Shown: one piece after another, positions 22,795 through 55,151 of the stretch
How positions within the stretch are numbered: the stretch's first letter is position 1
Layout of the letters: each line of letters starts with the position of its first letter
DNA from: Flavobacteriaceae bacterium
GTDB taxonomy: Bacteria > Bacteroidota > Bacteroidia > Flavobacteriales > Flavobacteriaceae
Assembly (NCBI GenBank): GCA_025800395.1
Contig: JAOXRU010000075.1
Coordinates: 62,001 to 126,000 of the forward strand
Direction of reading: 5' to 3'
Length of the DNA stretch: 64,000 nucleotides
Translations under genes and position numbers: made by a program
The notes under the pieces: model-generated
The model's input: the letters and a program-made list of their open reading frames with translations, nothing else
What the model was told of the DNA's origin: nothing
Databases searched by the model: none

Positions 22795-23913
22795 TTATTG
22801 TTGTATCCGATTCTCTACAGGAGTTGCATATATGGCCAACAATCTTGTTTGAATTTTGGAAGCTTGGGGAGCTTGTTCTAAGTGTTTCAAAAAGCGTTCT
22901 TTGTCTTCTAAAGTATAGTGATCGGCATACTTTTGCTTGCCAGACAGCAAATCCGCTGCCAAATAATTGGTAGGAAACAATTTATAATTTTTATGCATTA
23001 TTGCATCTATTCGTTCTGCCAACAATTGTATAATCTTCTTTTTTGGTAAATTAAAATCTATCCCTTCTAAAGAAAGTTGCTCATAACACAAATGCACTTT
23101 CCCTTTGTAATCCTGAATACCATGCACAATGCTATTTATGTTTTCGTACTTGGTTTTTTCATAATGACCAGTATCTTCTATGGTTTGTAATTCTTTGGCC
23201 TTTTCCACATCACAGGGCTCGTATTCGTAGCTTACTGTAGAAATCATTATTGGCAAGCGATGTAGTTTTTCTTTGATATCCTGCTCTCCTAAAAGCAACA
23301 TATTAATTAAGCCTGGAAATGTTTTATCATTTCCATCCTTGGTTCTACCATTGCCCTGGGCGATCCAAGCAGATACTTTCTTTTCACTTATAGCATGTTG
23401 CAAATAAGCAGACAACACTTTTGCATTGTTTATCAATTCCGATTTACTGCCATACCGAACTACAGTGTACATGCTGTTTAACTTAGCTACCCGCTCCATT
23501 ACTTCGTTTACAATAAGGTTGTTACCCAAAGATATCTCCGTAAACGGATGTCCATTATGATACAATTCGTATTGCAACAAACCGGCATCTAAAAATATAT
23601 CTCTATGGTTAGAAATAAATAAATACGCTGCTCCTTTTTTTATATTATCAAATCCCTCAAAACGAAGTTCACTAATGCTATGTTTGATCAAGTCTGAAAT
23701 CATTGGCTCTATAAACGCCACCTGAAAATCGGCACAACTTTTGCAATTCTCCAATTTTTTTACGATACCTTCTTTCGTCCAGCTAGGATGGATATATTGA
23801 ACCCCTTGTATAAATTGACTGCTGTTTTTTAGCCAATCTAAAGCCTCAATTATCTCGGAAGAAGTATAGGGTGCTATATCTCGATAAACAGCTGGTGTAC
23901 GTGTCAATATCAT
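22795..23913 (-). CDS. PlsC/PlsB-like acyltransferase, last gene of the pigment cluster
   Basis: 372 residues with a glycerolphosphate-acyltransferase-type core. The catalytic block reads SNHRDIFLD: His103 is followed by Asp at +2 and +6, so the classical HxxxxD spacing is not met. SAWIAQGNGRTKDG would be the second motif, and PIMISTVSYEYEPCD resembles the fourth. No membrane helix is obvious. It begins 5 bases after the AMP-ligase stop. It may acylate a pigment intermediate or membrane lipid; inferred from context. Confidence 0.75.
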   Translation of the reverse strand: MILTRTPAVYRDIAPYTSSEIIEALDWLKNSSQFIQGVQYIHPSWTKEGIVKKLENCKSCADFQVAFIEPMISDLIKHSISELRFEGFDNIKKGAAYLFISNHRDIFLDAGLLQYELYHNGHPFTEISLGNNLIVNEVMERVAKLNSMYTVVRYGSKSELINNAKVLSAYLQHAISEKKVSAWIAQGNGRTKDGNDKTFPGLINMLLLGEQDIKEKLHRLPIMISTVSYEYEPCDVEKAKELQTIEDTGHYEKTKYENINSIVHGIQDYKGKVHLCYEQLSLEGIDFNLPKKKIIQLLAERIDAIMHKNYKLFPTNYLAADLLSGKQKYADHYTLEDKERFLKHLEQAPQASKIQTRLLAIYATPVENRIQQ

Positions 23914-23918
23914 ATGGG

Positions 23919-25211
23919 TTATTGCTTTCTATAATCGATTAATACGCGTGGTTTGCGACTCATTTTTGGAAACTGCAACTGATTGATTTCTGCTATTTCT
24001 TTAAATTCTATTTCTGGCAACACGCGTAATTTTGCACGGAAACGATCTTGTATTCGCTTCATTAATACATCGCTAGGCGCCTTAGCGCCTATTTTCACCT
24101 TTACATGATCTGTTCCTATTTCATTGGTATGTAGCTCTATTACAAAATTGGTTACTGCATTAAAATCGTTGAGCAAATCAAACATCGCAGGAGGATAAAT
24201 CGTAGTTCCCTTATATTTTATCATCTGAGCCTTGCGACCAATAACTGGCCCCAATCTAGGGGTAGTTCTTCCACAACTGCAAGGCGTAGAAAATTTTTGC
24301 ACCATATCTCCAGTCTTAAATCGCACCAATGGCATGCCTTCCACGCCAAGGGTAGTGACCGTAAGTTCGCCAACTTCTCCCTCTCCTACAACTTGGTCTT
24401 GATCGTCCAAAACTTCGGTGATAATCAGTTGGGATATTTCGTGCCCGCCTTGTTGGGCACTGCATTCGGTAAAAGCCGTACTCATCTCTGTAGATGCATA
24501 GGTATTGTAGAGCTTCAATGGCCATTTTTCCACTATTTTTTTTGCCAATATGGTATAATTCATCTTGGCATCTCTCAAACTCTCTCCTATACAGACCACC
24601 GATTTTACGCTGCTGTTCTTGTAATCGATACCATTGGCTTCGGCATATTGAATCAACTTCAGTAAAAACGACGGAACGGCTATCAGGTATTCTGGCCGGA
24701 ACTTCAAAATAGAATCCCATTGCATTTCTGGAACTCCTGCACCAACCCGCACTATACTAGCACCCAATTTCCTAGCACCCAAAAAATAAGCCAAGCCAGC
24801 CATAAAACGCTTGTCGATGGTAGTCAACAACTGTATGGTGTGCTCGGAGGTGATGCCTGTCATCGCCAAAGAAGTAGCTTCGTTGTATGCCAAGCGTTCC
24901 AAATCGCTTTCGGTAAGTACAAAACTTACTGGCTTACCCAATGTGCCCGAAGTAGTCGCTATATCTACTATCTGTTTTTGATCCACACAAATAAAATCAT
25001 CGTTGAAATCTTCTAAATGCGATTTTGTCGTTGGCGGTATTTGCTGTAAATCCAATGGAGATTTTATAGTAGATATATCTATATGATGGGCAGCAAACCA
25101 CTGCTTGTAGAAGGTAGATTGTTTTGCAACATATGCCAACTGCTCTTGGAGTCTGCTCGCTTGAAGCAAGCTTATATTTTCTTTGTTTTCTTTATCTGTA
25201 TGGAAGGTCAT
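23919..25211 (-). CDS. AMP-dependent aryl/acyl ligase (phenylacetate-CoA ligase-like)
   Basis: 430 residues from the ATG at 25211, which overlaps the upstream stop as ATGA; an in-frame start at 25238 is also possible. It is an adenylate-forming enzyme: ATTSGTLGKPVSF is the phosphate-binding loop, YNTYASTEMSTAF the A5 motif, and FKTGDMVQKF with the Cys-rich CSCGRTTPRLG are PaaK-like. The likely job is activating 4-coumarate, made by the cluster's tyrosine ammonia-lyase, for loading onto an ACP as polyene starter. This is inferred from pathway logic. Confidence 0.82.
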   Translation of the reverse strand: MTFHTDKENKENISLLQASRLQEQLAYVAKQSTFYKQWFAAHHIDISTIKSPLDLQQIPPTTKSHLEDFNDDFICVDQKQIVDIATTSGTLGKPVSFVLTESDLERLAYNEATSLAMTGITSEHTIQLLTTIDKRFMAGLAYFLGARKLGASIVRVGAGVPEMQWDSILKFRPEYLIAVPSFLLKLIQYAEANGIDYKNSSVKSVVCIGESLRDAKMNYTILAKKIVEKWPLKLYNTYASTEMSTAFTECSAQQGGHEISQLIITEVLDDQDQVVGEGEVGELTVTTLGVEGMPLVRFKTGDMVQKFSTPCSCGRTTPRLGPVIGRKAQMIKYKGTTIYPPAMFDLLNDFNAVTNFVIELHTNEIGTDHVKVKIGAKAPSDVLMKRIQDRFRAKLRVLPEIEFKEIAEINQLQFPKMSRKPRVLIDYRKQ

Positions 25212-26866
25212 CGTTGCTTTCTTTTGCATTTTTTCCAATATTTCTCTACCTTATTCCGCTGTGGAAGGGTAGTAATTTCCAACTTCATCGCCTTGGCAAA
25301 TTCAATTTCCGCTGCACGATAATACCCGCATTCATAATAATACTGACCTGCAAGATAATACGCTTCCCAATAATATGGGTTAAGTTTCTGTAAATTTCGG
25401 AAATCTGCAGCATTCAGCTGTTTTTTTTGTGACATTGCCGTCTTTATTTCTCTGCTTTTTATACGGTAAGCTTCGTATTTGGCATACTCCTGGCTTAGCA
25501 AAAAAGGATCGGAAGCAATGGAATACGAAGCTTGCTCATAGCTCTTGGGCTCTGCGATACTGCTAGGTGTTCCAAATACGGTATTCAAATCATATGCCAC
25601 AAAGGTTCCCAACTGATAGGGTGCAGTAGATACCCAAACTCGCAATGCATCGGGTTGAAATACAATACCGTGATGCGCCAAGAGCTGATTGAGTGATTTT
25701 TCGTTCCCAAATCCTATATTATTCTGATCGATCCCTTGGGTATTGCGCAATATGGCAACTGCATCTATGGGCGAAATAGCTTTGTCCCCTAGCTCTTTTT
25801 CCATTTTCTCAAAACGATACATGCTATGGCTCTCCAGTTTGTGACGATTATTTCTTTTGTCGTCCGCAAAGGCAGAAGATTGAAAATGATTGGAGCATAC
25901 CAGCTGGCTACTATTCTCTTTTTTGTACACGCCAAATGTTTTTGGAGCCATTTCTATAAGTATGGCTGCTTGTTCTTTGGCACTGCTCACCATTATCGAT
26001 TCTGCAACAAACACCTCCATATCCTTTGCAATAGCTACAGCCTCGTCTAAGCTCGAAGCATATTGCAATATTCGCCTAGTAACCAATGAAATAGGTGTTT
26101 TGGCAATAAGCGGAATACTCGACTTGCCAGCATTGATCGTTACACTGATGCCTGCTGTATTCATACCAGAAACTACACCCAACATGCCTGGCCAAGAATA
26201 ACTTACAAATGGATGTCCTTTGTCTGGGCGAATAAAATACAATAGCTTTTCTCTGGCAAATGCATCACCTGCATAAAAATCAAAATTTCTCCCTACCAGC
26301 AATTTGCCATCCGCACTATTTTTGCCCCAAACGGCAAAGGAAGAACAGCCAACCAACATCAAATCTTGCATGGCATGTCCAATATCGTGTGCACCGTGCA
26401 AATACAAAGCGCGCAAATAGGCCGACCCCACATGCTTGTACTTTTCGGAGGCATATCGAGATAATCCATAAATTTCTTGTTTCATCTCTTCCGACACATA
26501 CATATGAGTTTTCCTGTTAAACCAAGCTAAAAACTTCAATAGGATATTTTGATAGGTTCTAGAAGGTACCAATTCCGCTATTTTTCCAAAAAATATATGT
26601 TCTTGATTTTGGTATAATTCTTTGCTCAAATTTCCAATGGCAACTCCTCGTTCCAAAGCATTGCCTTCAACATACATTTCCCAGATGCCATGTTTGTTTT
26701 TTAGCAAACTGTTGTTTCCTTGCGTAAAAATGGTATCTGCCCATTGTTTTCTGGCTGGTTGTTCCAGCGCATATTTGGGCTGTGCTTTTATAGCTTTTTG
26801 TAAGCCACAAGAAGACATGGTAAAAACAAAAAACAGCAAACCTATTCCTATTCTCCAACTGCTCAT
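25208..26866 (-). CDS. C45-type (penicillin acyltransferase-like) lipoprotein
   Basis: 552 residues. The N-terminal signal has a lipobox-like FTMSSC (Cys20), so it is probably tethered to the envelope. The core matches the Ntn-hydrolase C45 family: Gly173-Cys174-Ser-Ser, where Cys174 would become the autoprocessed N-terminal nucleophile, then GKLLVGRNFDFY and GVVSGMNTAGISVT. The C-terminal ~70 residues form a TPR-like helical pair. C45 enzymes transfer or hydrolyse acyl groups on amides. In a pigment cluster whose product is an ester, it is a candidate acyl-transfer enzyme outside the cytoplasm. Confidence 0.82.
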   Translation of the reverse strand: MSSWRIGIGLLFFVFTMSSCGLQKAIKAQPKYALEQPARKQWADTIFTQGNNSLLKNKHGIWEMYVEGNALERGVAIGNLSKELYQNQEHIFFGKIAELVPSRTYQNILLKFLAWFNRKTHMYVSEEMKQEIYGLSRYASEKYKHVGSAYLRALYLHGAHDIGHAMQDLMLVGCSSFAVWGKNSADGKLLVGRNFDFYAGDAFAREKLLYFIRPDKGHPFVSYSWPGMLGVVSGMNTAGISVTINAGKSSIPLIAKTPISLVTRRILQYASSLDEAVAIAKDMEVFVAESIMVSSAKEQAAILIEMAPKTFGVYKKENSSQLVCSNHFQSSAFADDKRNNRHKLESHSMYRFEKMEKELGDKAISPIDAVAILRNTQGIDQNNIGFGNEKSLNQLLAHHGIVFQPDALRVWVSTAPYQLGTFVAYDLNTVFGTPSSIAEPKSYEQASYSIASDPFLLSQEYAKYEAYRIKSREIKTAMSQKKQLNAADFRNLQKLNPYYWEAYYLAGQYYYECGYYRAAEIEFAKAMKLEITTLPQRNKVEKYWKKCKRKQR

Positions 26867-28386
26867 GCGTTTGCCTTTTTAATTTTTTCTAATAAATCCA
26901 CCTCGGGCCCAAGAATCTCTCTACAACTTACTATAGCAGATATGGTAACTCCCAATATACCGTGCATTTTGATAGATTGCCCAGTGAAAAACAAATTACT
27001 GATCTTGGTTCGTGGCGAAACAAACGATTTATAAGGCGTGTTTACATCTTTTAAATAGCCATACATAGATCCTCGATTACATCCTATATAGTCTCTATAC
27101 GACAAAGGCGTAGAGGCATAGGTCTCCAATATACAATCTCGGATATTGGGGTACTGCTTCTCCAATTCCACCAAAATCTTTTCTGTTTTTTCACGTTTAA
27201 AGGTTTCATAGGATTGCCCCCTTTCATTTTCTGTTACCTTGGTGTTGAATGTATCTTCCCAAGGTTTTACATCTTCATAGCGCATATAAGTTAGCACCGT
27301 TAGACTTTCCGCCCATTGTTCCTGATTTTTTTTGACTCCCATAGATAGCATATAGCCCTCGGGCCAGCTTTCTTGGGTATATTCATGTGACTTTAAATAG
27401 CCATTGGCGTTCTTAAAGTGATATCTATTGTAGTTTAAATAAGGAAAAGTATTTGGCTTCAATACAATATAGACACTAAAACCAGCTATGCCATTTTGAA
27501 TATTAAAAATACGATTGGCATAGGACTTTCGGATATTACCTTCAAGCATTTTTAAAGTAGTTTTTGGTTCTATATTGGAAACAAAGGTTGTAGCTTCTAC
27601 GGTAGACCCGTCTTTGAGACGTACCGCTTTTACAACTTTGTCTTCTAGTTCAAACCCAATCACTTCTTTGTATTTGTAGATTTCTCCGCCATGGGCTTTT
27701 AATTGTCTAACCAATAATTTTGATATTTGAGAACCTCCATTAACACAACGCCAAGCGCTTCTAATATAAGAATTTACAGAAAGGGCATGCACATAAAAAG
27801 GGGTAACCCCTTCTATACCAGCATATAAAAAACTATTTCCTGCCAAAACGGCTTTTAATTTTTCATTGGATGTGAGTTTGTTTAAAAAGCCAGAAAGGCT
27901 TAATGTCATCACATTATGATCATCAAAAAATGGTTTTCCTGGTTGCAAATTATACAATGGAAAATTATCACAGATCTCTTGAAGCTTATCTATATAGGTT
28001 GCTATTGCTTTTTCTTCCTTGGGAAAACAAACAAGAAGTTGCTTTTTAAAATTCTCATAACCCTGTGCATGCGGGTAATGGGTTGTTTCTCCATCGAAGC
28101 TTATTCTATCATAGGCATCCGTATCTAGTTGCTTGATTTGCAGATCTTGGTAGATTCCTAAGTACTGAAAATACTGCTGTAGATTTTCCCCTTTTCCTAA
28201 CCCACCAATATAGTGCACCCCTGTATCAAAAATACATTTATCTCTTGAAAAGGTTTGTAGATTTCCACCAAACTGGTTGTTCTTTTCCAATACGCATACC
28301 TTGTTCCCTTCCATAGCTAGGATATTGGCAGAGACCAGTCCCCCAAGTCCGCTTCCAATTATAACTACATCATACTGTTTATTCAT
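26863..28386 (-). CDS. FAD-dependent oxidoreductase, phytoene desaturase/retinol saturase-like
   Basis: 507 residues. The N-terminal dinucleotide fold reads VVIIGSGLGGLVSANILA, then VLEKNNQFGGNLQTF, as in CrtI/CrtO-type and all-trans-retinol saturase enzymes. The C-terminal FTGQSIKMHGILGVTISA is the second flavin contact. It may oxidise or saturate the polyene or an alkyl chain. No carotenoid genes are nearby, so a carotenoid role is unlikely. The stop overlaps the C45 gene start by 4 bases. Confidence 0.85.
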   Translation of the reverse strand: MNKQYDVVIIGSGLGGLVSANILAMEGNKVCVLEKNNQFGGNLQTFSRDKCIFDTGVHYIGGLGKGENLQQYFQYLGIYQDLQIKQLDTDAYDRISFDGETTHYPHAQGYENFKKQLLVCFPKEEKAIATYIDKLQEICDNFPLYNLQPGKPFFDDHNVMTLSLSGFLNKLTSNEKLKAVLAGNSFLYAGIEGVTPFYVHALSVNSYIRSAWRCVNGGSQISKLLVRQLKAHGGEIYKYKEVIGFELEDKVVKAVRLKDGSTVEATTFVSNIEPKTTLKMLEGNIRKSYANRIFNIQNGIAGFSVYIVLKPNTFPYLNYNRYHFKNANGYLKSHEYTQESWPEGYMLSMGVKKNQEQWAESLTVLTYMRYEDVKPWEDTFNTKVTENERGQSYETFKREKTEKILVELEKQYPNIRDCILETYASTPLSYRDYIGCNRGSMYGYLKDVNTPYKSFVSPRTKISNLFFTGQSIKMHGILGVTISAIVSCREILGPEVDLLEKIKKANA

Positions 28387-28387
28387 C

Positions 28388-31300
28388 TTAGCTGTGATAC
28401 GCTATTTTTTGATAACAAGATACGAGTTTCGTGCTATTTTCTAAATCGAAAATTAAATTTCCTGCTTGTATTGCATCTAATTTAGAACCTAACACCCAAA
28501 CCACCTCCACCAAACTAATAAGTTTATCCCAATCTGCAGAAGGCAGCGGCTGTTTATCTAAAACCAACTGTAAATTAGACACCCCTTCCATCTCTTCTAG
28601 TACTTCTATTTGTTTAAACCCTCGACACGATAGGCTATACAAATGGGAAACAATTTCTTTCTCTTTTTCACTGGTAGACCAACTATAGAGTTTACGTTTT
28701 TGCGATTTTAGACTAAGTAACAATTCTAAAATACCAGAAGAATCACTACTACAAACTACCCCAACATCTTCACCTAACTTATTGTTAATTTCCCGATAAG
28801 CTGTTTTTCTATCTTCAAAAAGCGCTTTTTGTGTTTCCCACAAATTTTCTGATTTATATAAATAATTGCTCCGAAGAATGTCTTTAAAGTAATCCACATT
28901 TTCCCATTCCTTCCTATAATGCCACATATTGGTCTTAAAGAACTTCGATACATTTTTTGTTATAGCTCTTTCGGATCCAGAGCGCAAGGGATCTTCCATA
29001 CCTATGCGCTTCCCTACTTTTACTTGGAGCGATCCATCGTAAATCATAAAATCCCCTTTTGGATTCACCTCAGCAGCACCATGTATATAAATAGGAAGTA
29101 TATCTAGTTCCAATTCTTGGGCAAGGTGAAAAGCACCTTTGTGAAACCTCCCTATTTTGTTGGTTAAGGAGCGTTTCCCCTCCGGAAATACCACAAGACA
29201 ATATCCTTGTCGTACTTTCTGCTTCAAATGTTCGAGACTATTGTCTACCCCTTTGGAAACTGGATAAAAACCAGCTACCCTAGCCAATAAACCAAAAATA
29301 GGTGATTTGTACACCCAATCGTTTACCAAATAAATAATATTGGGCGTCACCATACCAAGTATCAATGTATCCAAGGCACTACTGTGATTGGCAATTACCA
29401 AAGCTGGTTTTTCAAATGTTTCGCCATGCGGGTTCTCTACCGATTTTTTCACAAAAGGATTGGCGTACAAAACTGCGGTTACCAATCGGGCAATTATACG
29501 GTGCAACCAGCGCATTTTTATCTTCTTAGAAATAGGGATAAGTGGCCATAACAACAAACTTAAAACAGATAAAACCATTCCGCCCAAGGCGTAAAATACG
29601 GAAAGCAAAAAGGAGTGTATCGCTACTCTTATTCGAAAAGGAGCAAACCCTTTTCTTGTACGTTTCCCTATAAATAACCTAAACAATATAGGCTGTAAAA
29701 CAAAGCTGAGCAACACAGCCATTAAAATCCCTAAAATGGAAATACTGGAGATAGATTTTAAAGCCGGATGCTTGGCAAAAATCAAGGCTCCAACACCAAG
29801 CAAGGTTGTACATACCGACAGGATGATGGATGCTTTGTAACTTGGCAATATGCTTTTTCCATTGGTGTATTGCTGCCGCAATCCGTTGGTCATAAATATG
29901 CTATAATCTACCCCTAAACCAAATATAAAAGTGGTAATAATAATATTGAAAATATTAAACTCTAAATCCAAAAAGCCCATCAAACCAGAAGTGAAATACC
30001 AACAAAGCACTATAGGTAATGTAGTTATCAGAACCAAAGTAAACTGCCTATAAAACAGCCATAATATACCAATTACTGCCAAAAGTGAGTACCACATCAG
30101 TGTTTGGAAATGCACTTTGAGATTTCCGAGAAAGATTTCGTTCATCTCTTGTCGGTCTACCACCAACACTTGTTTTTCCTTTGCAAAAACTTTTTTGATA
30201 TCCGCTATTTGATCTGGAGCAACTTTAATCATAGACATAGCAGTATGGAAACCATCCTCTTCATTTTCATGGATAAACTCTTCTAAAAATAAGGTAGAAA
30301 TTTGCTGATAGGCGTCCAAGTCTAGCTGTGGAAAACTATGTTGTGCCAATAATTGGTAAAACGCCTGAAAGGTGTGAGGTTTTAAACCCAATGGAGTTCC
30401 TACCTCTACCATTTGATGGTGTAGCGCCTCTTTTCTTTCTAGCGTCCAGAAAGCATTCCAACGGTCTACTTTTTCTTGTTGCGTTTTCAGATCTAAAACT
30501 ATGCCTCCTACTGCACTTATGCTTTGTATAGCTCCAGCCTTTTTTAATTTTTGCAACTGATGTAGTACATCGTGATTCTTTGCCAATACTTTTTGTAAGT
30601 CATTTCCATAAGCAGTAACGTACAAAGACTTATTATGGGTTTGCAACAAAGCATTTAATCTTTTTTCGGTAGCCAGTAAACTTTCTGTTTGGTAATTCAT
30701 TGCAGCCAAATCTGTATTGAAAACTACCTTCTGAAAATAAAACGCACTACCTATCGTTAAAACAGCAATAAAAACCCAAAGTCCTTTCTGTTTTGAAAAA
30801 GAAAATGCAGCCAATTTATCAATAAACATGGCCTTGGGTACCTTGCCCTTAGACCTCACCAATAATGGAATTAGTATTAAAGCAAAAAAAGCAGATCCCA
30901 AAACGCTAATAGAGGCAAACAACCCCAAATCTTGTAAGGCTTTAGATTGCACCAGAGTTAAACACATAAAGGCCAGGGCAGTTGTAAGGCTACTCATCCA
31001 TATGGGTTTGGTTACATCTGCATATAGTTTTTGAATATTTGGGTGATTCCTATAATGGGTGAGCAAGTGTAAGGCATAATCTAAAGTAATGCCCAATAGC
31101 ACCGAACCTATCCCTAAAGAAATGGCAGATACGGTTTCGCCTCGAATTGCCAAAACAAACAAAGCTAGAGATCCGCCAAAAAGAGTTGGCAAAAATAATA
31201 TAATAGGCACTAAAAATCTTCGATAATACAGCAGTAAAATCAACAATAAAATTCCCAGTGCAATACTTAAGGTTAGCTGAATATCTTTTTTAATCTGATT

Positions 31301-45363: not shown

Positions 45364-45800
45364 TAAGACGCAATCACAGTTTTCATTTCCCCACTAGCAA
45401 TTTGTTCTCCGTCTACAGTTACCAAAACTTCCACCATGGTAACTCCCATTATATCGTACAATATATGCACTTTTGTCTGGATTTCTTCGCCTATTGCTAC
45501 CAAACGCTGTATTGCTATTTTTTTTATCGCACCTATATAACCAACAGGCGGCTCTTCCTTGGCCAAGGCATATTTATAGCCTGTATGCAAAGCTACGCTT
45601 TGTGCCATATGCTCTATGATGCCCGGAGCTTGCAAAAATCCAGAGCCACAAAAGATATTGGATTCTTTTACTGTGAATCCAGTTTCAATGGTGGTCTCTG
45701 TAAAAGAAAACATTTTATCTACCATTAGGATGGGATCTGCATGTGGCAACAAATCAGCCACAAGATCTGCATCTAATATTTTATGGATAACAGTCTCCAT
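45363..45800 (-). CDS. Second hotdog-fold ACP dehydratase-like protein
   Basis: 145 residues with DLLPHADPILMVDKM and APGIIEHMAQSVALHTGYK, the same two hotdog motifs as its neighbour (His near 20, Glu near 83). The two may work as a heteromer, as ApeI/ApeP-type pairs are thought to. It shares a base with the next gene and follows darB after 1 base. Confidence 0.85.
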   Translation of the reverse strand: METVIHKILDADLVADLLPHADPILMVDKMFSFTETTIETGFTVKESNIFCGSGFLQAPGIIEHMAQSVALHTGYKYALAKEEPPVGYIGAIKKIAIQRLVAIGEEIQTKVHILYDIMGVTMVEVLVTVDGEQIASGEMKTVIAS

Positions 45801-46938: not shown

Positions 46939-47009
46939 GTAATTCTTTTGTTCTTTTAACTTCCTATAAAACCACCTAAACACCGCGCATAAAAATGATT
47001 TTATCTGGT

Positions 47010-47936
47010 TTAGTCTTGCTTATATTCTACAGAGGAATAATAAGCCTTCTGCCTTTCAATATGTTTTATCCTAAAAACATAGGTTATCAAAAATACAATA
47101 AAAACAATAGGTGCAATCACCCATATGGCAAATAATAAATAATAATTAAACAATTTCAATAATCTCTTTCTTTTTGCAACATCCTTATTTGTATTGCTTG
47201 TAATAAACTTGGCCCATTTCCCAAACAATATATTGGCTCGCTGATCTGCCAAAACCAAAAACGGCTTCACTTTTACCCCTCCTAGCTTCAACAATTTCGC
47301 TTGCAAGGAATCATAACTCTCCTGCAATAATGCTTTTTCTATTGGCTTACCAAACTTTTTGGCTTCCGCAATGTCTTTATCAGAGACCCCAGGTTTAGGA
47401 AATATGCCTAAATATTTTTCTTTCTTCCCGCTAAACATCCATTGCACTATGGTAATTACGCTTATATGGTTTATATGCCTATCTACCAATGCAATGTTTC
47501 CTACTAACTTCACATCCAATCCCTGCAAATATTTCTTCACCTTTTCTTGCGCCATTATCCACATATTGCGACTGGCATTTAGGGTAATCACAGCTTTGTT
47601 AGACAACAATTTCTTTGCCGCTTCTGACTGCAAAAAAGATGCCGTGGGAATGGAAGGAGACAAATACCATACCGTGTACCCTAATACTATCAAATCATAA
47701 TTGGTATTTAAAACAGCTTCTGGTATTGCTTCTATTGGTTCGGCTTTTTCTAGGAACGACTCTGGAAATGCATCAAAGAAATCGGGCTTCTTCCACGGGA
47801 ATTTAAACTTTCGCTTGCTAGCAATAGGCTGATAGTCTATCTGTACCTGCATTGTATCTATAGAAGAACATACTTGTTTTAAAATTTCTTCTAATTGACC
47901 CGATTGGGAATAGTACAAAACCAATATTTTCTTCAT
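47010..47936 (-). CDS. darA: DarA-like dialkylresorcinol aromatase (flavodoxin-fold)
   Basis: 308 residues. The N-terminus is a flavodoxin-like FMN site (KILVLYYSQSGQLEEI; later LIVLGYTVWYLSPSIPTA). The C-terminal ~50 residues contain one strong membrane helix (LLFAIWVIAPIVFIVFLITYVF), so the protein is membrane-bound. DarA-type proteins oxidise the DarB cyclohexanedione to the aromatic resorcinol. It precedes darB by 71 bases. Confidence 0.9.
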   Translation of the reverse strand: MKKILVLYYSQSGQLEEILKQVCSSIDTMQVQIDYQPIASKRKFKFPWKKPDFFDAFPESFLEKAEPIEAIPEAVLNTNYDLIVLGYTVWYLSPSIPTASFLQSEAAKKLLSNKAVITLNASRNMWIMAQEKVKKYLQGLDVKLVGNIALVDRHINHISVITIVQWMFSGKKEKYLGIFPKPGVSDKDIAEAKKFGKPIEKALLQESYDSLQAKLLKLGGVKVKPFLVLADQRANILFGKWAKFITSNTNKDVAKRKRLLKLFNYYLLFAIWVIAPIVFIVFLITYVFRIKHIERQKAYYSSVEYKQD

Positions 47937-47939: not shown

Positions 47940-48824
47940 TTAGTTTTTAGAATTCGCTTGCCAAAAATCAAAATAATTAAACCACTGCAACGGATAGCGC
48001 GCCAATATTCCTTCTATACTTTTACAATATTCTTCCAACAGGCCTTGGGAATCTCTTCGTTTAAATTGCGCCTGACGGGCGTACAAATGATAGTGTTTAT
48101 TGGTTTCTTTCATCACATAAACAAACAATACTGGTGCTTGCAAACGCGAACTCAATAAAAAAGGTCCTACCGGAAACTTTGCTTTTTCTCCTAGCAAATC
48201 TGCTTGGATGGTTTTAGATCCTTCAAAATATCTATCTCCAGTAAAACACACCAAGCCATTGCTGTCCAAGGCATGATGTATTTCAAAAATATGCGACATA
48301 TCCTCTCGTACGATGATGGTTTTTACCTGAGATTTCCCCGTGACTCCATCCAAATACTGTTGCAATTTTTCGTGCTCTGCATCCGTAGTTACGATATAAA
48401 TGGAAGATTCTATATCGATTTCTGCAAAAAACTTATTGGCTATTTCAAAATTTCCAATATGTGCAGAAATAAGCACCCCACCTTTTTTTTCGCGAAGCAA
48501 TGCTTTAATATGGTCTATCCCATCAAACTCATAGGTGAAATAATCGCGCAGTCCGGAAGAAATAGCTACCTTATCTATAATGGTTTGCCCAAATACAAAA
48601 TAACTTTTGTAAATAGATACAAAGCTCTTCCAAAAACCATAACCCAATCGCTTTCTAAAATAATAATAAATGGATTTGCTGCCGTAATAAGAAAACAAAA
48701 AGAAATAGAATGCCACAAATACCAGCAAGCCATAAGCAGCAACTACCCCTAATTTCTCCATGAGGTAAATAAATATTTTATAGCCCGTTACTGTGCCTCT
48801 CGACTTCCCTTCCCACTGGGTCAT
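47940..48824 (-). CDS. LpxL/HtrB-like acyltransferase
   Basis: 294 residues. An N-terminal membrane helix (about 22-42) is followed by a lysophospholipid/lipid A-type acyltransferase core. The HxxxxE-type motif SAHIGNFEIAN and CFTGDRYFEGS are typical of LpxL relatives. Being inside the pigment operon, it may transfer an acyl chain to the resorcinol or polyene at the inner membrane, rather than to lipid A. Acceptor unknown. Confidence 0.83.
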   Translation of the reverse strand: MTQWEGKSRGTVTGYKIFIYLMEKLGVVAAYGLLVFVAFYFFLFSYYGSKSIYYYFRKRLGYGFWKSFVSIYKSYFVFGQTIIDKVAISSGLRDYFTYEFDGIDHIKALLREKKGGVLISAHIGNFEIANKFFAEIDIESSIYIVTTDAEHEKLQQYLDGVTGKSQVKTIIVREDMSHIFEIHHALDSNGLVCFTGDRYFEGSKTIQADLLGEKAKFPVGPFLLSSRLQAPVLFVYVMKETNKHYHLYARQAQFKRRDSQGLLEEYCKSIEGILARYPLQWFNYFDFWQANSKN

Positions 48825-48836: not shown

Positions 48837-49079
48837 TTATGCTAATTTGTGTTCTATTAAATCGTAAAAGTCTTGCAGTGTAGCCACATCTTTAAAATCT
48901 TCTCCAACCAATTTTACTCCAAAATTAGCCTCTATAGCTACCACTAAGTCTACAAAATCGAGGCTATCCAATTCCAAAGTATCTTTCAAATTGGCATCGG
49001 GGGCGATGTCTCCTTGCTCTACTTCAAATTCATCAACTAAAAAATAGTTGATTTTTTCAATGATTACTGATTTGTCCAT
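48837..49079 (-). CDS. Acyl carrier protein, second copy
   Basis: 80 residues from the ATG at 49079; the ORF extends to 49109 but would overlap the ketosynthase. Phosphopantetheine attaches at Ser39 in TLELDSLDFVDL. It is acidic and helical. It is located 13 bases after the KS stop, so it probably serves that enzyme and the following FabG-dependent cycle. Confidence 0.94.
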   Translation of the reverse strand: MDKSVIIEKINYFLVDEFEVEQGDIAPDANLKDTLELDSLDFVDLVVAIEANFGVKLVGEDFKDVATLQDFYDLIEHKLA

Positions 49080-49092
49080 TCTTTTGACTATC

Positions 49093-50310
49093 CTATATTT
49101 TTTTGACAATTAATGCCGAGTTCGTTCCTCCAAATCCGAACGAGTTAGACAAAAATACATCAATTTTCTTTTCTACTGTTTTATTCACCAAATTTATTCG
49201 TTGCGCGGCCTCATCTGGTTGTTCTAAATTAATATTTGGTGCCACAAAACCATGTTGCATCATTATCATACTATAAATCACCTCACTAGCACCTGCCATC
49301 CAACACTCGTGCCCGGTCATAGACTTGGTAGAACTCACCTCTGGGCAAGCCTCTCCAAATATTTCAAAAATAGCTTTTGCCTCATTGGCATCTCCCAAAG
49401 GGGTAGATGTTGCATGTGCATTTACATAGTCTATATGTGAAGACTGCATTCCTGCCTGATCTAAAGCCATCTGCATAGCCCTGGCAGGCCCTTCCACATT
49501 GGGGGTAGAGATATGATCCCCATTGGAAGAAAACCCGTAACCAACCACTTCACCTAGTATAGTAGCACCCCGCGCCATAGCAGATTCATAACTCTCTAAT
49601 ATCAGTGTTGCTGCACCACCACTTGGCACCAAGCCATCTCTATTGCTATCAAAAGGCCTACACGCTTGCTCTGGGCTATCTTCTCTTGTAGAGAAAACCC
49701 CCAAACCATCAAAACTTGCCATAGCGTATTGATTTGTTTCTTGCGCACCACCACAAATTACCATCTCTTGCAAACCTCCTTTAATAAGATTATACCCCAA
49801 ACCAATAGAATGCGAACCACTTGCACAAGCTGCACTTACAGTAAAGTTGATTCCTTTTAACTTAAACAAGGTAGCCAAATTCATGGTTACGGTGGAATTC
49901 ATAGCTTTAAATATAGCACCAGAACCCACCAAAGTAGTATCCTTCTTTTTTCTAACAGTATCTAAAGAATCTATAACCGACTTTGCTGTACTATCGTTCC
50001 CGTAGATGATTCCTATATCGCGTTGGTTTAAAAAATCGTCATCTATACCTGCTTGCACAAATGCCTCCATAGTGGCTACATAAGCATACAAACTTTCTTC
50101 ACCCATACTAATACGTTGCCTTCTAGACAATTGCTTCTTTAGGTTAGGCGTGGGCAACTTTCCGGTTAAACCAGAGCGGTAACCAAAATCTTTTCTGTCG
50201 GCATCTAATACGATACCAGATTTTCCTGCAAATAAAGATTGTCTCACTTCTTCTATATTTAATCCTATGCAAGAATAAATTCCCATTCCGGTGATGACTA
50301 CTCTACTCAT
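49093..50310 (-). CDS. Beta-ketoacyl-ACP synthase, third copy (FabF-like)
   Basis: 405 residues, the closest in the window to canonical FabF. Cys162 (SAACASGSHSIG), His299 (NAHATSTPLGD) and His334 (KSMTGHECWMAGA) are all in place, and the C-terminus has SNSFGFGGTNSALI. It pairs with the ketoreductase and ACP around it as one elongation module. Confidence 0.94.
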   Translation of the reverse strand: MSRVVITGMGIYSCIGLNIEEVRQSLFAGKSGIVLDADRKDFGYRSGLTGKLPTPNLKKQLSRRQRISMGEESLYAYVATMEAFVQAGIDDDFLNQRDIGIIYGNDSTAKSVIDSLDTVRKKKDTTLVGSGAIFKAMNSTVTMNLATLFKLKGINFTVSAACASGSHSIGLGYNLIKGGLQEMVICGGAQETNQYAMASFDGLGVFSTREDSPEQACRPFDSNRDGLVPSGGAATLILESYESAMARGATILGEVVGYGFSSNGDHISTPNVEGPARAMQMALDQAGMQSSHIDYVNAHATSTPLGDANEAKAIFEIFGEACPEVSSTKSMTGHECWMAGASEVIYSMIMMQHGFVAPNINLEQPDEAAQRINLVNKTVEKKIDVFLSNSFGFGGTNSALIVKKI

Positions 50311-50324: not shown

Positions 50325-51050
50325 TTAATAGATTCCTCCATTAATATTAATCACTTCTCCTGTAATATAAGACGATTTTTTAGACGCCAAAAAAGCCACC
50401 AAATCTGCTACTTCTTCCGCCTCTCCAAATCTATTGGCAGGTATCATACGTTTTAGCTCATTTTCATCCATCTCTGCAGTCATATCGGTTTTAATAAAAC
50501 CAGGTGCTACCGCATTTACCGTTATTTTTCTTTTTGCCACCTCTTGCGCCAATGCCTTGGTGGCGCCTACCAAAGCAGCCTTAGCAGCAGAGTAGTTGGT
50601 TTGCCCTGGTGTACCTTTTACCCCAGAGACCGAAACCATATTAATAATGCGCCCATAGCGGTTGCGCAATAATTTCTGAATTAAATGATTGGTTACATTA
50701 TAAAATCCATCTAAACTAGTGCGAATTACGCTATTCCAATCTTCTTGCGGCATCCACATAAACAAACCGTCTTTGGTAATACCTGCATTGTTTACAATCA
50801 CCTCTACCAAATCGTCTGGATGCGCTTCTTGCCAAGCATCTAAGGCAGTGGTTACCGCTTCTCTGTCTGCTACATCAAACTGCACTATAGCACCTTTACC
50901 ACCAAGTGCCTCTACTTCTTGTAAGGCGTCTTCTGCCGCAGCCTTATTGCTGTGATAATTAATTAATACTGCATAATTGGTAGTTGCTAACTTCTCACAA
51001 ATAGCTCTCCCTATTCCTCTTGATCCTCCGGTAACTAATGCCCACTTCAT
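50325..51050 (-). CDS. fabG: 3-oxoacyl-ACP reductase
   Basis: 241 residues; a short-chain dehydrogenase with VTGGSRGIGRA at the NADPH site, NNAG, and catalytic Ser140, Tyr153 and Lys157 (TNYSAAKAAL). This would be the only ketoreductase in the cluster, so it probably serves all its ketosynthases. It lies 12 bases after the WG-repeat gene stop. Confidence 0.93.
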   Translation of the reverse strand: MKWALVTGGSRGIGRAICEKLATTNYAVLINYHSNKAAAEDALQEVEALGGKGAIVQFDVADREAVTTALDAWQEAHPDDLVEVIVNNAGITKDGLFMWMPQEDWNSVIRTSLDGFYNVTNHLIQKLLRNRYGRIINMVSVSGVKGTPGQTNYSAAKAALVGATKALAQEVAKRKITVNAVAPGFIKTDMTAEMDENELKRMIPANRFGEAEEVADLVAFLASKKSSYITGEVININGGIY

Positions 51051-51062
51051 GCTTTATGCTCT

Positions 51063-52211
51063 TTATTTTACGTTTACAAATGCCTCTACAAATTTAAACC
51101 ATTTTCCGCCCAATGGCTCGCCGTTTTTATTTATAAAGCCCCAATTCTTCTTATGTGTTACACGAGCCCATCCGTTTAGAAAACCTTTGGTTTCTCCCAT
51201 ACGAAACAACTGTGCAAAACCGCCCGTAGATATCCCATATCTCATTGGCACTACCAATTCCCCTTGGGTGTTGATAAATCCCCACATTTTCTTTTCCTTA
51301 ACCGGCGCCAAACCATCTTCACTAAATATTTCTGCGTCTCGGTACTGCTCTTCTACTACCATTTCGCCTTTGGTATTTACATAACCCCATAACTTCCCAG
51401 TGGTAGACACTGGCGCCAAACCATTTACAAAGGCACGTACCTTTTTGTAGGTTGGTTTAATTAACCAATTTCCTTTCTTATCTACAAAACCCCATAGTTT
51501 ACTAGCATCGGATGCATAGGTGTATGTTCCGCCAGGCCGAAAATCTTTTATTTTTACCGCACCCTCTAAGGCTTTAAATTTCTTATTCACCAAAACTCCA
51601 GCTTGCTGACTTTTCATAACGGTTACCACCCCATTTTCCAATACAGCTCCTATGCTTTGATAATTTGCCGGCACTACTACTTTACCATTTCTATCTAAAA
51701 GCCCCCAATTGTTATTGTCTTTAAACTTGGCCAAACCATTTTTAAAATTTAATATTTTCTGATATATTGGTTCTACCAATACGTTTCCTTGGTTGTCTAT
51801 TAAACCAACTAGCTTATTTCTGCGAATAAACGCCCTTCCATCCTTAAAATCATATAGCTTATCACTCTGGGGCATCTCTAACTCTTTTCCTTTTTTATCT
51901 ATATAAAACCAACGCTTATCCTTGGCTACAACAGCAACTCCTCCTCCAAAGGCCTTTACCTTATTGTAACGGGCAGCAATTACTTGCTCTCCTTTCAAAT
52001 TTAAAAAACCCCAAAGCTTTCCTTCTTTAAAGGCTATCAACCCATCTGCGTAATTCCCCAATTTATCAAAGCTAGACCCTATTATCCAAGCGCCTGTTTC
52101 ATCTATTACCCCAAATTTGCCATTGTTGTCTCTAACTGTTGCCACACGTTTTTGTGCAAACAACTGCGAACCCAATAGTAGGCCAACCAATACAATTACA
52201 TGTTTTTTCAT
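51063..52211 (-). CDS. WG-repeat secreted protein
   Basis: 382 residues with a signal peptide (KKHVIVLVGLLLGSQLFAQ). It is made of many WG repeats, each about 25-48 residues with LWGFxNxKGExV-type cores, e.g. LWGFLNLKGEQVI, NWGLLDRNGKVVV, LWGYVNTKGEMVV, MWGFINTQGELVV. These form a beta-rich solenoid, usually for protein binding. Its presence between tyrosine ammonia-lyase and fabG is unusual for an enzyme operon; it may be a scaffold in the envelope. Confidence 0.9.
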   Translation of the reverse strand: MKKHVIVLVGLLLGSQLFAQKRVATVRDNNGKFGVIDETGAWIIGSSFDKLGNYADGLIAFKEGKLWGFLNLKGEQVIAARYNKVKAFGGGVAVVAKDKRWFYIDKKGKELEMPQSDKLYDFKDGRAFIRRNKLVGLIDNQGNVLVEPIYQKILNFKNGLAKFKDNNNWGLLDRNGKVVVPANYQSIGAVLENGVVTVMKSQQAGVLVNKKFKALEGAVKIKDFRPGGTYTYASDASKLWGFVDKKGNWLIKPTYKKVRAFVNGLAPVSTTGKLWGYVNTKGEMVVEEQYRDAEIFSEDGLAPVKEKKMWGFINTQGELVVPMRYGISTGGFAQLFRMGETKGFLNGWARVTHKKNWGFINKNGEPLGGKWFKFVEAFVNVK

Positions 52212-52247
52212 GACTTTATCTTACATTTAAAATTATACCATTAAAGG

Positions 52248-52260
52248 CTAGGGACCCTAG
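52248..52260. promoter_or_regulatory. Palindrome between the ammonia-lyase and WG genes
   Basis: CTAGGG-A-CCCTAG, perfect on either side of the central base, extended by G-T pairs. In the transcript it would form a hairpin in the 58-base gap but is not followed by a long T-run. It could be a processing or attenuation site. Confidence 0.3.
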
Positions 52261-52269
52261 TTTAACTTT

Positions 52270-53796
52270 CTATGCTTGATTATTCATTAAATACTGCTTT
52301 ACCTCATTCACATAAGGGTACATTATCGGATCTTCTGTAAAAGCAGGAACCATTGCTCTAATTCTATTGTACAACTTCTTGGTACCACTGCTTAGCTTGC
52401 TATCAAAATCCATATATTCTATGGCTTGCACTATGGTAATGAGTTCTATCCCCAATACCTCAAAGCCATTTTCTATTACTTTTTTGGTAAGCAGGGCAGC
52501 ATTAGTTCCCATACTCACTATGTCTTGGTTGTCGTTGTTGTTTGGTATACTGTGGACGTACATTGGGTTAGACAAGGTTTGGTTTTCTGCCGTGGTAGAA
52601 GTAGCGGTAAACTGCACCCCTTGCATTCCAAAATTCAGACCAAGCTTTCCTAGATTCACAAATGGCGGCAACTTATCATTCAGCTTGGCATTTAATAAAT
52701 AATTTAGCTGACGTTCCGATAACATACTTAACTTGGTAATCACCAGCTTTAGTTTATCCATTTCTAAAGACACATAATCTCCATGAAAATTACCACCGTG
52801 ATATACCTGTTGTTTTTCTACATCTATAATAGGGTTGTCATTGGCAGAATTTACCTCTTCTATCAAAATTTTCTCTACCATTTTTAAGGTATCCCATACC
52901 GGCCCCAATATCTGTGGCACACAACGCAAAGAGTAGTACTCTTGGACCTTCTCTTTAAACACAGGGGTATGGTTGTTGCCCTTATATAAATGTTGGTCTC
53001 TTTTTCTTACCAACTGACTATCTGCTAAGTGCGCCCGCATTTGCTTGGCAATCTCACGTTGCCCCACATGCTTTTTGGTGCCATTTATTTCTTCGGATAA
53101 ATGATCGTCATAGGCCTCTACTATTTCATTTATAGCTGCCGAACCAATAATAGCCCAATCCAACAATCGTTTGGCATACATGGTATTTACAATTCCAATA
53201 CCTGTCATTACCGAGGTACCATTCATTAGTGCCAATCCTTCGCGCAGAGCAACCGTTATTGGTGCTAAACCTTCTGCTGCAAACACATCTGCGGTAGCTT
53301 TTCTTTCTCCTTTATAGAAAACCTCTCCTTCTCCTATAAGCACCAAGGCCAGATGCGCTAGCTGCACCAAATCGCCACTGGCACCTACGCCACCGTGCTC
53401 GTATATAAGCGGAATAATATCTTTATTGAGCAAAGTCGCCATTAGTTTTATGGCAGACGGATGCACGCCAGAATGTCCCAAACTAAGGGTATTTAAACGC
53501 GCCAACATGGCCGCACGTACATACATAGGTGCCAATGGCTTACCCGTACCTGAAGCATGAGAACGAATTAAATTGTACTGTAATTGTATTCTATCTGCAT
53601 CATCTATCTTGTATTGTGCCATTGGCCCAAAACCAGTATTCACCCCATAAATTACTTTGTTCTCCGAAAAGGTTTTTAAAAATGAAAAACTCTCTTCTAC
53701 CCTCTTTAATAAACTCTGGTGCAATTCTAAGGGCTCTTTTTCAAAAATAACCGCAAAGAAATCCGCTAGAGTTAGCGCTTCTTTAAGTACTGGCAT
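52270..53796 (-). CDS. Tyrosine ammonia-lyase of the flexirubin cluster
   Basis: 508 residues. The MIO cofactor would form from Ala139-Ser140-Gly141 (GGVGASGDLVQLAHL). Tyr50 (VIYGVNTGFG) is the active-site loop. The selectivity segment LQYNLIRSHASGTG and the long conserved stretches match, from memory, the characterised tyrosine ammonia-lyase of Flavobacterium johnsoniae. It would convert tyrosine to 4-coumarate, the starter of the aryl polyene. It is the first gene of the leftward operon and has its own promoter. It is distinct from hutH in this window, which has LQSNILQSHSVGVG there. Confidence 0.92.
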   Translation of the reverse strand: MPVLKEALTLADFFAVIFEKEPLELHQSLLKRVEESFSFLKTFSENKVIYGVNTGFGPMAQYKIDDADRIQLQYNLIRSHASGTGKPLAPMYVRAAMLARLNTLSLGHSGVHPSAIKLMATLLNKDIIPLIYEHGGVGASGDLVQLAHLALVLIGEGEVFYKGERKATADVFAAEGLAPITVALREGLALMNGTSVMTGIGIVNTMYAKRLLDWAIIGSAAINEIVEAYDDHLSEEINGTKKHVGQREIAKQMRAHLADSQLVRKRDQHLYKGNNHTPVFKEKVQEYYSLRCVPQILGPVWDTLKMVEKILIEEVNSANDNPIIDVEKQQVYHGGNFHGDYVSLEMDKLKLVITKLSMLSERQLNYLLNAKLNDKLPPFVNLGKLGLNFGMQGVQFTATSTTAENQTLSNPMYVHSIPNNNDNQDIVSMGTNAALLTKKVIENGFEVLGIELITIVQAIEYMDFDSKLSSGTKKLYNRIRAMVPAFTEDPIMYPYVNEVKQYLMNNQA

Positions 53797-53833
53797 CTTA
53801 TAATACTTCCTAAATAGTTTTTTTGACTAAAAT

Positions 53834-53866
53834 CAAAAATATTCTTCTCAATCTAGAATATTTCAA
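53834..53866 (-). promoter_or_regulatory. Promoter of the leftward pigment operon
   Basis: On the minus strand a TTG (53864-53866), a 22-base spacer and TATTTTTG (53834-53841) match the Bacteroidota -33/-7 pattern. The start site would be about 30 bases before the ammonia-lyase start. A second exact -7 box, TACATTTG, is at 53869-53876. Confidence 0.6.
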
Positions 53867-53906
53867 AGCAAATGTAATACATTTATAGTCTACACAACAA
53901 ATAATA

Positions 53907-55151
53907 ATGAAACCAGATACCATAGACGTACTCATCATTGGCGCAGGACCTTCTGGCGCTGTATCTGCTGGCTATTTAAACCAACAGAAAAAAGACATAC
54001 TGCTAGTCGAAAAAGTGAAATTTCCGCGCTATGTTATAGGAGAAAGTCTTATTCCACGATGCATGGATCATTTTGAAGCAGCCGGACTATTAGCTTGCTT
54101 AAAAAAACAAAACTATGAAGTTAAAAGAGGGGCGCGTTTTCTTAGAAAAGACGAGGTATGTTTATTCGATTTTTCTAAAAAACATGGCGATGGTTGGGAT
54201 TGGACTTGGCAAATTCCCAGAGACCACTTCGACCATACCCTTACCCAAGAACTAGAGCGCAAAGGTGTGCCTATACTTTGGGAATGGGAGGTTACCCATG
54301 TAGATTTTGACACAGACCTCTGCAAAACCGTTTTAAAGCACAAAAACGGAGAAATCAAAACCATATTATCGAAGTACATTATAGATGCCAGCGGATACGG
54401 ACGTGTACTACCGCGTTTGTTAGACTTAGACCGCCCATCTACCCTAGACGACCATAGCTCTATTTTTACCCAAGTAGCAGATAGCCAGCGCCCAGATGGA
54501 GAGGAAGGCACCCTTATTTCTTTCGATATTGTAGAAAAAGAAGTTTGGCTATGGGTAATTCCGTTCTCTAATGGCAACACCAGTATAGGCGTAGTAGCAC
54601 CCACACTATGGCTAAATAATATACCAGGCACCCCTGCAGAAAAACTGCAAGCCGTTATTGCCATGTCAGACCATTATAAAACACGCTTTACGCCCTACGA
54701 GCCCATTATGGACACCCTTAGAATCACCACCTTTTCCAAAAGTGTAAAGCAACTATACGGAGACCGATACGTGCTCACCGGAAACAGTTCCGAATTCTTA
54801 GACCCTGTATTCTCCTCTGGGGTAAGCTTTGCCACAGAAAGTGGTATTTTGGCCGCAAAACTACTCAACAAACAACTAAACGGAGAAAGCGTAGACTGGC
54901 AAACCCAATACGCCGATTATATTGCCAAAGGTGTAGCCGTATTTAGCACCTACGTAAAGGAGTGGTACACTGGAAACCTGCAAAAGCTATTCTTTCACCG
55001 CCCAGAAAACCCCGAAGTAAAAAGGCAAATTTGCGCCGTACTAGCAGGCTATGTCTGGGACGATACCAACCCCTTTGTAAAAAAACACCATAGAATTGTA
55101 AAAACCCTCGCTCACCTTATAGATATGGAAACCGAGACCGAGACCAACTAA
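53907..55151 (+). CDS. FAD-dependent halogenase-like monooxygenase, divergent from the pigment operon
   Basis: 414 residues. The FAD fold starts with IIGAGPSGAVS (Gly12, Gly14, Gly17), with GESLIPR and the halogenase-like Lys73 region (YEVKRGARF). WLWVIP at 214-219 fits the WxWxIP signature of flavin halogenases; an earlier WTWQIPRDHFDH (99-110) fits the FAD-contact region of the superfamily. It may chlorinate or hydroxylate the aromatic ring of flexirubin. It is the only cluster gene on the plus strand and shares the intergenic control region with the ammonia-lyase. Which reaction it performs is uncertain. Confidence 0.82.
   Translation: MKPDTIDVLIIGAGPSGAVSAGYLNQQKKDILLVEKVKFPRYVIGESLIPRCMDHFEAAGLLACLKKQNYEVKRGARFLRKDEVCLFDFSKKHGDGWDWTWQIPRDHFDHTLTQELERKGVPILWEWEVTHVDFDTDLCKTVLKHKNGEIKTILSKYIIDASGYGRVLPRLLDLDRPSTLDDHSSIFTQVADSQRPDGEEGTLISFDIVEKEVWLWVIPFSNGNTSIGVVAPTLWLNNIPGTPAEKLQAVIAMSDHYKTRFTPYEPIMDTLRITTFSKSVKQLYGDRYVLTGNSSEFLDPVFSSGVSFATESGILAAKLLNKQLNGESVDWQTQYADYIAKGVAVFSTYVKEWYTGNLQKLFFHRPENPEVKRQICAVLAGYVWDDTNPFVKKHHRIVKTLAHLIDMETETETN

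Follow-up and report, generated by a model that had tools for sequence, protein, structure and literature searches.

DarH as a candidate coupling enzyme for the two halves of a flexirubin-type pigment in a Flavobacteriaceae gene cluster

Which enzyme joins the aryl-polyene half of a flexirubin-type pigment to its dialkylresorcinol (DAR) half? The question is raised here by a gene cluster in a 64,000-nucleotide stretch of DNA from a Flavobacteriaceae bacterium (GenBank assembly GCA_025800395.1, contig JAOXRU010000075.1, positions 62,001 to 126,000; hereafter the window), in which 32 genes occupy the minus strand between 22795 and 53796 and a single gene on the plus strand (53907-55151) points away from them, starting 110 bases from the FlxA gene (Table 1). 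The region is very probably a flexirubin-type biosynthesis and export cluster, an explanation within which DarH is the favored, less certain, ester former. The cluster itself is a standard, known system, belonging to a described class with curated models; what is new is that a candidate can be put forward for the step that unites the pigment halves.

The flexirubin-type assignment, which a sequence-only reading of this DNA had already proposed, is supported by curated family models and by synteny. Eight proteins (FlxA, FlxB, FlxY, DarB, DarG, DarH, LolA2 and LolB2) exceeded the cut-offs of curated NCBIfam models, the LolA2/LolB2 pair has been tied to flexirubin loci (PMC11885536), and family matches together with residue checks revealed a type II polyene synthase set of ketosynthase (KS), Cys-less partner, acyl carrier protein (ACP), ketoreductase and dehydratase. 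The alignment with F. johnsoniae that the same reading had advised was carried out on a contig whose title reads Flavobacterium johnsoniae strain CI04 (L159), and the gene order matched over the 21 kb compared, from FlxA to LolB2, including the WG-repeat gene and the block DarA-DarB-FabZ-like-FabZ-like-DarG-DarH-ABC-ABC-thioesterase-KS. In L159 this block contains two extra open reading frames (ORFs; 106 and 164 aa), and the far half of the F. johnsoniae cluster lies outside the 21 kb. Near-identical gene order recurs across other genomes, which places the cluster far beyond chance.

DarH carries the BtrH_N (PF14399, 175.8 bits) and DUF4872 (PF16169, 209.4 bits) domains in common with the BtrH/CtaG/CcbD-type acyltransferases, and its residues C13, H126 and D142 were invariant in 15 aligned rows. 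Its AlphaFold2 model (mean predicted local distance difference test score, pLDDT, 87.5; predicted template modelling score, pTM, 0.88) aligned over the full length with CtaG (Z 23.8, 3.6 Å, 293 residues) and also matched AziU2-U3 (Z 22.1) and CcbD (Z 21.5), the next fold group reaching 14.2; identity to the CtaG/CcbD/AziU2-U3 group was 10-17%. Deposited CtaG entries include the variants C11A, H128A and D144N and one complex labelled PHBA, and these positions correspond to the Cys-His-Asp of DarH when residues are equated by number and spacing rather than by superposed coordinates. In published accounts, CcbD works by a ping-pong in which an acyl group arriving on a carrier protein becomes a thioester of its Cys before it goes to the acceptor (PMC12945683); for CtaG, a transfer of 4-hydroxybenzoyl from one carrier protein to another is predicted (PMC6772006), and BtrH is an ACP:aminoglycoside acyltransferase (PMC10318531). 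Since an aryl-polyene acid resembles a stretched 4-hydroxyphenyl acid, the natural reading would be that the polyene is donated from an ACP and accepted by a hydroxyl of the dialkylresorcinol. On balance, we lean towards DarH being the missing flexirubin coupling enzyme, an ester-forming, carrier-dependent, papain-like protein that would use Cys13-His126-Asp142 and act before export, with DarG as a partner of helix-turn-helix (HTH) fold serving in ACP docking or as operon regulator. The acyltransferase label is already NCBI's ('BtrH-related acyltransferase DarH'), and it is the coupling role that is proposed here; no such assignment was found in the portions of the literature searched, most subscription journals lying outside that search.

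Predicted ORFs of 31 genomes, the source genome excluded, were searched with BLAST to compare gene order. Mostly 28 kb to 60 kb was compared per locus, and coverage was partial for G324, G075 and G293, where a blank does not mean absence. DarB and C45 (a putative autoproteolytic acyltransferase/hydrolase) were each found in 30 of these genomes, DarH, DarG and DarA in 29, FlxA in 28 and the WG-repeat gene in 19. In the named loci, a selected set comprising the best 80 of 565 DarH matches at Flavobacteriales level only, 69 were full-length, and every one of the 69 carried DarA, DarB, DarH, both ABC genes, both FabZ-like genes, the thioesterase, the KS-family genes at 36797, 37866 and 39956, the ACP at 39073 and the gene at 39336 (DarG: 68/69). 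FlxA and FlxB were both present in 63/69, with the WG-repeat gene between them in 61 of the 63. A broader survey used 296 Bacteroidota genomes drawn evenly with at least 90% completeness requested; DarB was called there with NF005293 (cut-off 450 bits; the stricter model NF053539 has a cut-off of 550) and C45 by a match above 400 bits. FlxA was over its cut-off in 25 genomes, DarB in 24 and DarH in 23, and C45 was present in 24. The sets were nested, the DarH genomes falling within the DarB genomes and these within the FlxA genomes, and all four proteins occurred in 22 of the 25 FlxA genomes. Likewise, DarH was over the cut-off in 13 genomes from a set of 60 relatives, and each of these also carried DarB and FlxA. 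It should be noted that related genomes in these surveys are not independent.

By such comparison the 33 genes can be divided into those of the polyene and those of the dialkylresorcinol, and the question of which enzyme joins them thereby becomes a two-gene question, DarH versus C45. The cluster of G175 keeps FlxA, FlxB, FlxY, KS, ACP, thioesterase, LpxL-like acyltransferase, deacetylase, LolA2, GT2, MMPL and C45, whereas DarA, DarB and DarH were not found genome-wide, nor the ABC pair and the 49093-type KS in the cluster compared. In G156, on the other hand, DarA, DarB, DarG, DarH and the ABC pair are present and no C45 scored above 25 bits, and G293 has FlxA, C45 and a lone DarB and neither DarA nor DarH. 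Thus, DarH tracks DarA plus DarB, and C45 tracks the polyene genes. The G175 locus (C1, about 990000-1013000; L088, L089) is a natural polyene-only FlxA-type cluster of the same family, without DarA, DarB, DarG and DarH.

These three genomes bear on the alternative that the ester is the work of C45 and arises at the membrane, on the non-cytoplasmic side, once polyene and dialkylresorcinol have been exported separately. C45 belongs to an acyltransferase/hydrolase family, its N-terminus appears by eye to be of export type, the cluster has both ABC and MMPL exporters, and C45 occurs in 24/25 FlxA genomes. However, G175 retains C45 although, without DarA and DarB, it would have no second half for coupling, G156 has DarA, DarB and DarH without C45, and the arcuflavin table of Azoarcus (PMC3949708) has no C45 entry. 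We consider a coupling role for C45 unlikely and rank it below DarH, which we infer from the three discriminating genomes, its predicted fold and its invariant residues to be the better candidate for polyene-dialkylresorcinol esterification. Within C45, C174 was invariant in 15 rows, and SCG stood near the N-terminus in 11 of them, the other four having a hydrophobic start without Cys. The protein probably acts outside the cytoplasm, as its N-terminus suggests by eye, and would belong to the polyene side. In a profile search against PDB most matches were of TPR type and fell on the C-terminus; an NTN-type amidase (6dy3) matched weakly, with E 6.2e-4.

Several points weigh against DarH as the coupling enzyme. 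DarH would need to make an aryl ester, whereas its look-alikes with described reactions form amides, and the triad of CcbD is Cys-His-Glu (PMC12945683). A sequence profile of DarH run against PDB found only helical matches to the C-terminus; because it misses the CtaG-like structures, the link to CtaG comes from the predicted fold and the BtrH_N family. A ligase-like protein, FlxW, has been suggested for the ester (PMC3992019), and FlxW could not be mapped to a gene here. DarA is named by position; the presumed DarA gave a weak flavodoxin match (E 3.5e-4, under the cut-off), and neither an NCBIfam family nor a curated DarA model matched it. The contrast between DarH and C45 comes from only three genomes (G175, G156 and G293). 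The control Bacteroides ihuae has FlxA over the cut-off, a DarB-like protein under the NF053539 cut-off and no DarH, DarA being outside this check, and DarB-like proteins of G331 (448.7 bits) and G309 (435.3 bits; NF005293 cut-off 450) occur without FlxA, DarH or DarA. Finally, none of the genomes surveyed is DAR-only, so that DarH was seen to follow the DAR genes in FlxA-positive genomes only.

This last gap also means that the surveys do not part a DAR-synthesis role of DarH and DarG from a coupling role, and at every locus examined DarH and DarG were accompanied by DarA/DarB or by one another. They might serve dialkylresorcinol synthesis, for example in chain transfer to or from ACP, with the LpxL-like acyltransferase or FlxW making the ester. 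Such an arrangement appears improbable to us: as told in PMC3992019, darA and darB alone yielded dialkylresorcinol in a heterologous host, and G175, with its polyene-only cluster, has the LpxL-like gene as well. It is very hard to sustain that the pigment is polyene alone, of the xanthomonadin or simple aryl-polyene kind, and lacks the dialkylresorcinol half, for although the backbone enzymes resemble aryl-polyene clusters and the E. coli list matches in KS, ACP, dehydratase, thioesterase, acyltransferase, glycosyltransferase, RND, LolA- and LolB-like proteins (PMC8253772), DarB is over its strict cut-off, DarG and DarH are over theirs, the presumed DarA is adjacent, all frames are open, and the start-up genes are FlxA and FlxY rather than those of a 4-hydroxybenzoate start-up.

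Some candidates were set aside in the course of these comparisons. No DarA was found in G293, G331, G309 or G274, which makes the DarB of the first and the sub-cut-off DarB-like proteins of the other three doubtful as dialkylresorcinol makers. An orphan DarH in G023 was rejected as a counter-example, since DarB and FlxA lie elsewhere on the same chromosome; on C1 of this genome the genes are scattered rather than clustered (DarB 683786, DarH 736482, FlxA 1245548). DarH-like proteins of about 150-186 bits, under the cut-off, were also seen in L014, L015 and G214 and as second matches in G265, G320 and G324; neither DarB nor FlxA was over threshold in G033 and G038 (the genomes of L014 and L015). 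It seems that these proteins represent a sister family with another role.

With DarH as the favored coupling enzyme, a pathway may be proposed. As their family membership suggests, FlxA would convert tyrosine to 4-coumarate and FlxY would activate it; both have been assayed from Chitinophaga pinensis, whose FlxY activates 4-coumarate (PMC3992019). The fatty-acid-like type II set (ketosynthases with the Cys-less partner, ACP, FlxB and dehydratases) may then extend 4-coumarate to an aryl polyene, while DarB and the presumed DarA would make the dialkylresorcinol, perhaps supplied by the ketosynthase/ACP pair at 49093 and 48837. DarH would probably take the polyene from ACP onto Cys13 and pass it to a dialkylresorcinol hydroxyl, so that the ester is formed in the cytoplasm. 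The ABC transporter adjacent to DarH, the MMPL exporter, LolA2 and LolB2 may carry the product to the outer membrane, and C45 would act on the polyene side, probably extracytoplasmically.

Two other systems were compared by their published descriptions. Chitinophaga pinensis shares the FlxA and FlxY families and the logic of polyene plus dialkylresorcinol, but its dar genes lie apart from flx, whereas here they are inside the cluster (PMC3992019). The arcuflavin of Azoarcus is likewise a polyene-dialkylresorcinol ester; its arc/dar loci include a BtrH-like dar gene, ABC genes, LolA, an exporter, a glycosyltransferase and a halogenase-like gene, and differ in a chorismate-enzyme starter instead of tyrosine, in being split and in listing no C45 (PMC3949708).

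The DarG model (mean pLDDT 85.1) showed a five-helix XRE-type HTH fold at residues ~63-133 (Z ~10 against DdrO, SinR and tied rows). HTH domains of HppE enzymes tie with repressors in this list, so the fold does not show DNA binding. The fold search spanned residues 63-133, the N-terminal part being barely covered, and the C-terminus gave no Foldseek match at E <= 0.001 and no sequence match. The conserved residues K98, R99, H100 and K102 would fit either DNA or an acidic ACP.

The divergent flavoprotein is closest to 3nix_A, labelled 'Flavoprotein/dehydrogenase', and next to the halogenases PltA (E 1e-53) and 3e1t (E 1.3e-51). W214-x-W216-x-I218-P219 and K73 were invariant in 13 rows, the K column aligning with the lysines of PltA and 3e1t; WxWxIP and an active-site Lys are what we take to be motifs of flavin-dependent halogenases. 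Pfam Trp_halogenase matched with 64.4 bits (cut-off 21), and the NCBIfam CmlS equivalog with 142, far under its cut-off of 900. The gene is also present in the polyene-only G175 cluster, which suggests that its product likely acts on the polyene side. Known flexirubins are said to differ in ring methylation and chlorination (PMC3992019); in the literature searched, two papers turned up for flexirubin together with halogenase and none for chlorinated flexirubin structures. Together, the halogenase-like gene and a missing methyltransferase allow a guess at ring decoration: the lack of the latter would suggest an unmethylated ring, in a draft genome that is incomplete (4,166,207 bases, 667 contigs, completeness 94.56%, contamination 7.72%).

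The sequence-only reading had called the cluster complete. The biosynthetic backbone is indeed entire, but the cluster lacks two accessory genes that some relatives have: a Methyltransf_2-type methyltransferase (9 of the 31 genomes), whose best match in the source genome (94.6% complete) was 19 bits, and a Cupin_8 protein (6 of 31), which had no match there, absence being unproven in both cases. Its 33 genes lie where it had placed them, and the enzyme types that it had named were found, namely the ammonia-lyase, three Cys-bearing ketosynthases and a Cys-less partner, two ACPs, a ketoreductase, FabA/FabZ-like dehydratases, DarB, the presumed DarA, an AMP-dependent ligase, several acyltransferases and envelope transport proteins (ABC, MMPL, LolA and LolB); that at least ten genes have no known role was a fair statement. 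Packing is tight, with gaps of at most 58 bases at all 31 junctions, but the 'many ATGA overlaps' were overstated: after two starts had been moved downstream by homology, so that DarG begins at 44908 and the KS-like partner at 37861, 13 of the 31 junctions overlap and three do so by exactly 4 bases. As a difference from the clusters of F. johnsoniae and other Flavobacteriaceae, the present one ends with the acyltransferase ATx, found in two of the 31 compared genomes. The sampled relatives share the family of the source genome and all belong to different genera; part of the value of the cluster lies in coming from a genus without a sampled same-genus relative, the other part in the division of its genes between the two pigment halves.

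Table 1. Genes of the flexirubin-type cluster, in window coordinates, with the basis of each assignment
Feature	Coordinates	Strand	Basis
ATx, PlsC-like acyltransferase, accessory, last gene	22795-23913	-	PF01553 barely over cut-off; homologue beside FlxY in 2/31 genomes (G164, G003)
FlxY, acyl-CoA ligase	23919-25238	-	NF053551 675.8 bits, cut-off 520
C45 autoproteolytic acyltransferase/hydrolase, lipoprotein-like N-terminus	25208-26866	-	NF040521 224.2 bits, cut-off 85
CrtD/CrtI-like FAD oxidoreductase	26863-28386	-	TIGR02733 E 8.7e-32, far under cut-off; 28/31 genomes
MMPL-type exporter with fused acyltransferase domain	28388-32089	-	PF03176, PF01553 over cut-off
GT2 glycosyltransferase with DUF2062	32082-33299	-	PF00535, PF09835 over cut-off
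Small conserved protein	33326-33823	-	17-row alignment; no Pfam/NCBIfam family
FabA-like dehydratase	33827-34192	-	PF07977 over cut-off
Outer-membrane beta-barrel, accessory	34196-34798	-	PF13568 over cut-off; 14/31 genomes
LolB2	34816-35430	-	NF053540 186.8 bits, cut-off 60
LolA2	35411-36037	-	NF053544 243.7 bits, cut-off 125
Polysaccharide deacetylase	36030-36803	-	PF01522 over cut-off
Cys-less ketosynthase-like partner, chain-length-factor-like	36797-37861	-	PF00109; HGATSFES at active-Cys site of ketosynthases (by eye)
Ketosynthase, Cys-His-His = C161, H294, H329	37866-39068	-	PF00109, PF02801
Acyl carrier protein	39073-39330	-	PF00550; NF006617 82.6 bits, cut-off 70
Short Cys-less ketosynthase-like protein	39336-39953	-	Conserved in 18 rows; profile match 6kxd_B 'Ketosynthase' E 0.0019
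Second ketosynthase, Cys-His-His present	39956-41095	-	PF02801, PF00109
YbgC/FadM-type thioesterase	41088-41516	-	TIGR00051 80.7 bits, cut-off 68.7
ABC-2 transporter permease	41506-42774	-	PF12698 over cut-off
ABC transporter ATPase	42767-43510	-	PF00005 over cut-off
DarH, BtrH-type acyltransferase	43507-44505	-	NF053550 505 bits, cut-off 300
DarG with C-terminal HTH-like domain	44507-44908	-	NF053545 199.2 bits, cut-off 170; match begins at residue 29 of longer ORF 44507-44992
FabZ-like dehydratase	44905-45363	-	TIGR01750 E 3.7e-9, under cut-off
FabZ-like dehydratase	45363-45800	-	NF000582 E 7.9e-12, under cut-off
DarB	45802-46983	-	NF053539 646.3 bits, cut-off 550
Presumed DarA	47010-47936	-	Position next to DarB and conservation, 29/31 genomes
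LpxL/HtrB-like acyltransferase	47940-48824	-	PF03279 over cut-off
Acyl carrier protein	48837-49109	-	NF003757 67.7 bits, cut-off 65
FabB/FabF-type ketosynthase, Cys-His-His present	49093-50310	-	PF00109, PF02801
FlxB ketoreductase	50325-51050	-	NF053542 420.4 bits, cut-off 340
WG-repeat protein, signal-peptide-like N-terminus (by eye)	51063-52211	-	PF14903, 8 stretches
FlxA tyrosine ammonia-lyase	52270-53796	-	NF053541 893 bits, cut-off 700
Flavin-dependent halogenase-like protein	53907-55151	+	Closest PDB sequence 3nix_A E 8.9e-187; halogenase signatures

Among the smaller proteins, that of 39336-39953 resembles a ketosynthase without the Cys and would be the second of this kind, shorter than the first, although its comparison by hhalign with the three ketosynthases of the window gave nothing usable (probability 1.7). 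The protein of 33326-33823 had no significant relative in PDB (best E 0.054), and no tRNA or Rfam RNA element was over threshold in the 64-kb window.

Local variation was seen at several related loci. G230, G257, G340 and L168 each have, next to DarA, an additional CrtD-like gene that is only distantly related (26-28% identity), and L168 (F. psychrophilum DSM 3660) also has two extra ORFs (216 and 344 aa) between DarH and the ABC genes at 11015-12700; an opposite-strand ORF of 970 aa is inserted between a FabZ-like gene and DarG in G320 (C300; L069, L070). Elsewhere in the window, hutH, hutI and hutU of histidine degradation occupy the plus strand at 15887-20702, the hutH product being a true HutH over the cut-off and distinct from FlxA. 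Three minus-strand ORFs (55905-57504) separate the cluster from a PEP carboxykinase gene; none has a Pfam or NCBIfam match over cut-off, and two have, by eye, lipoprotein-like starts.

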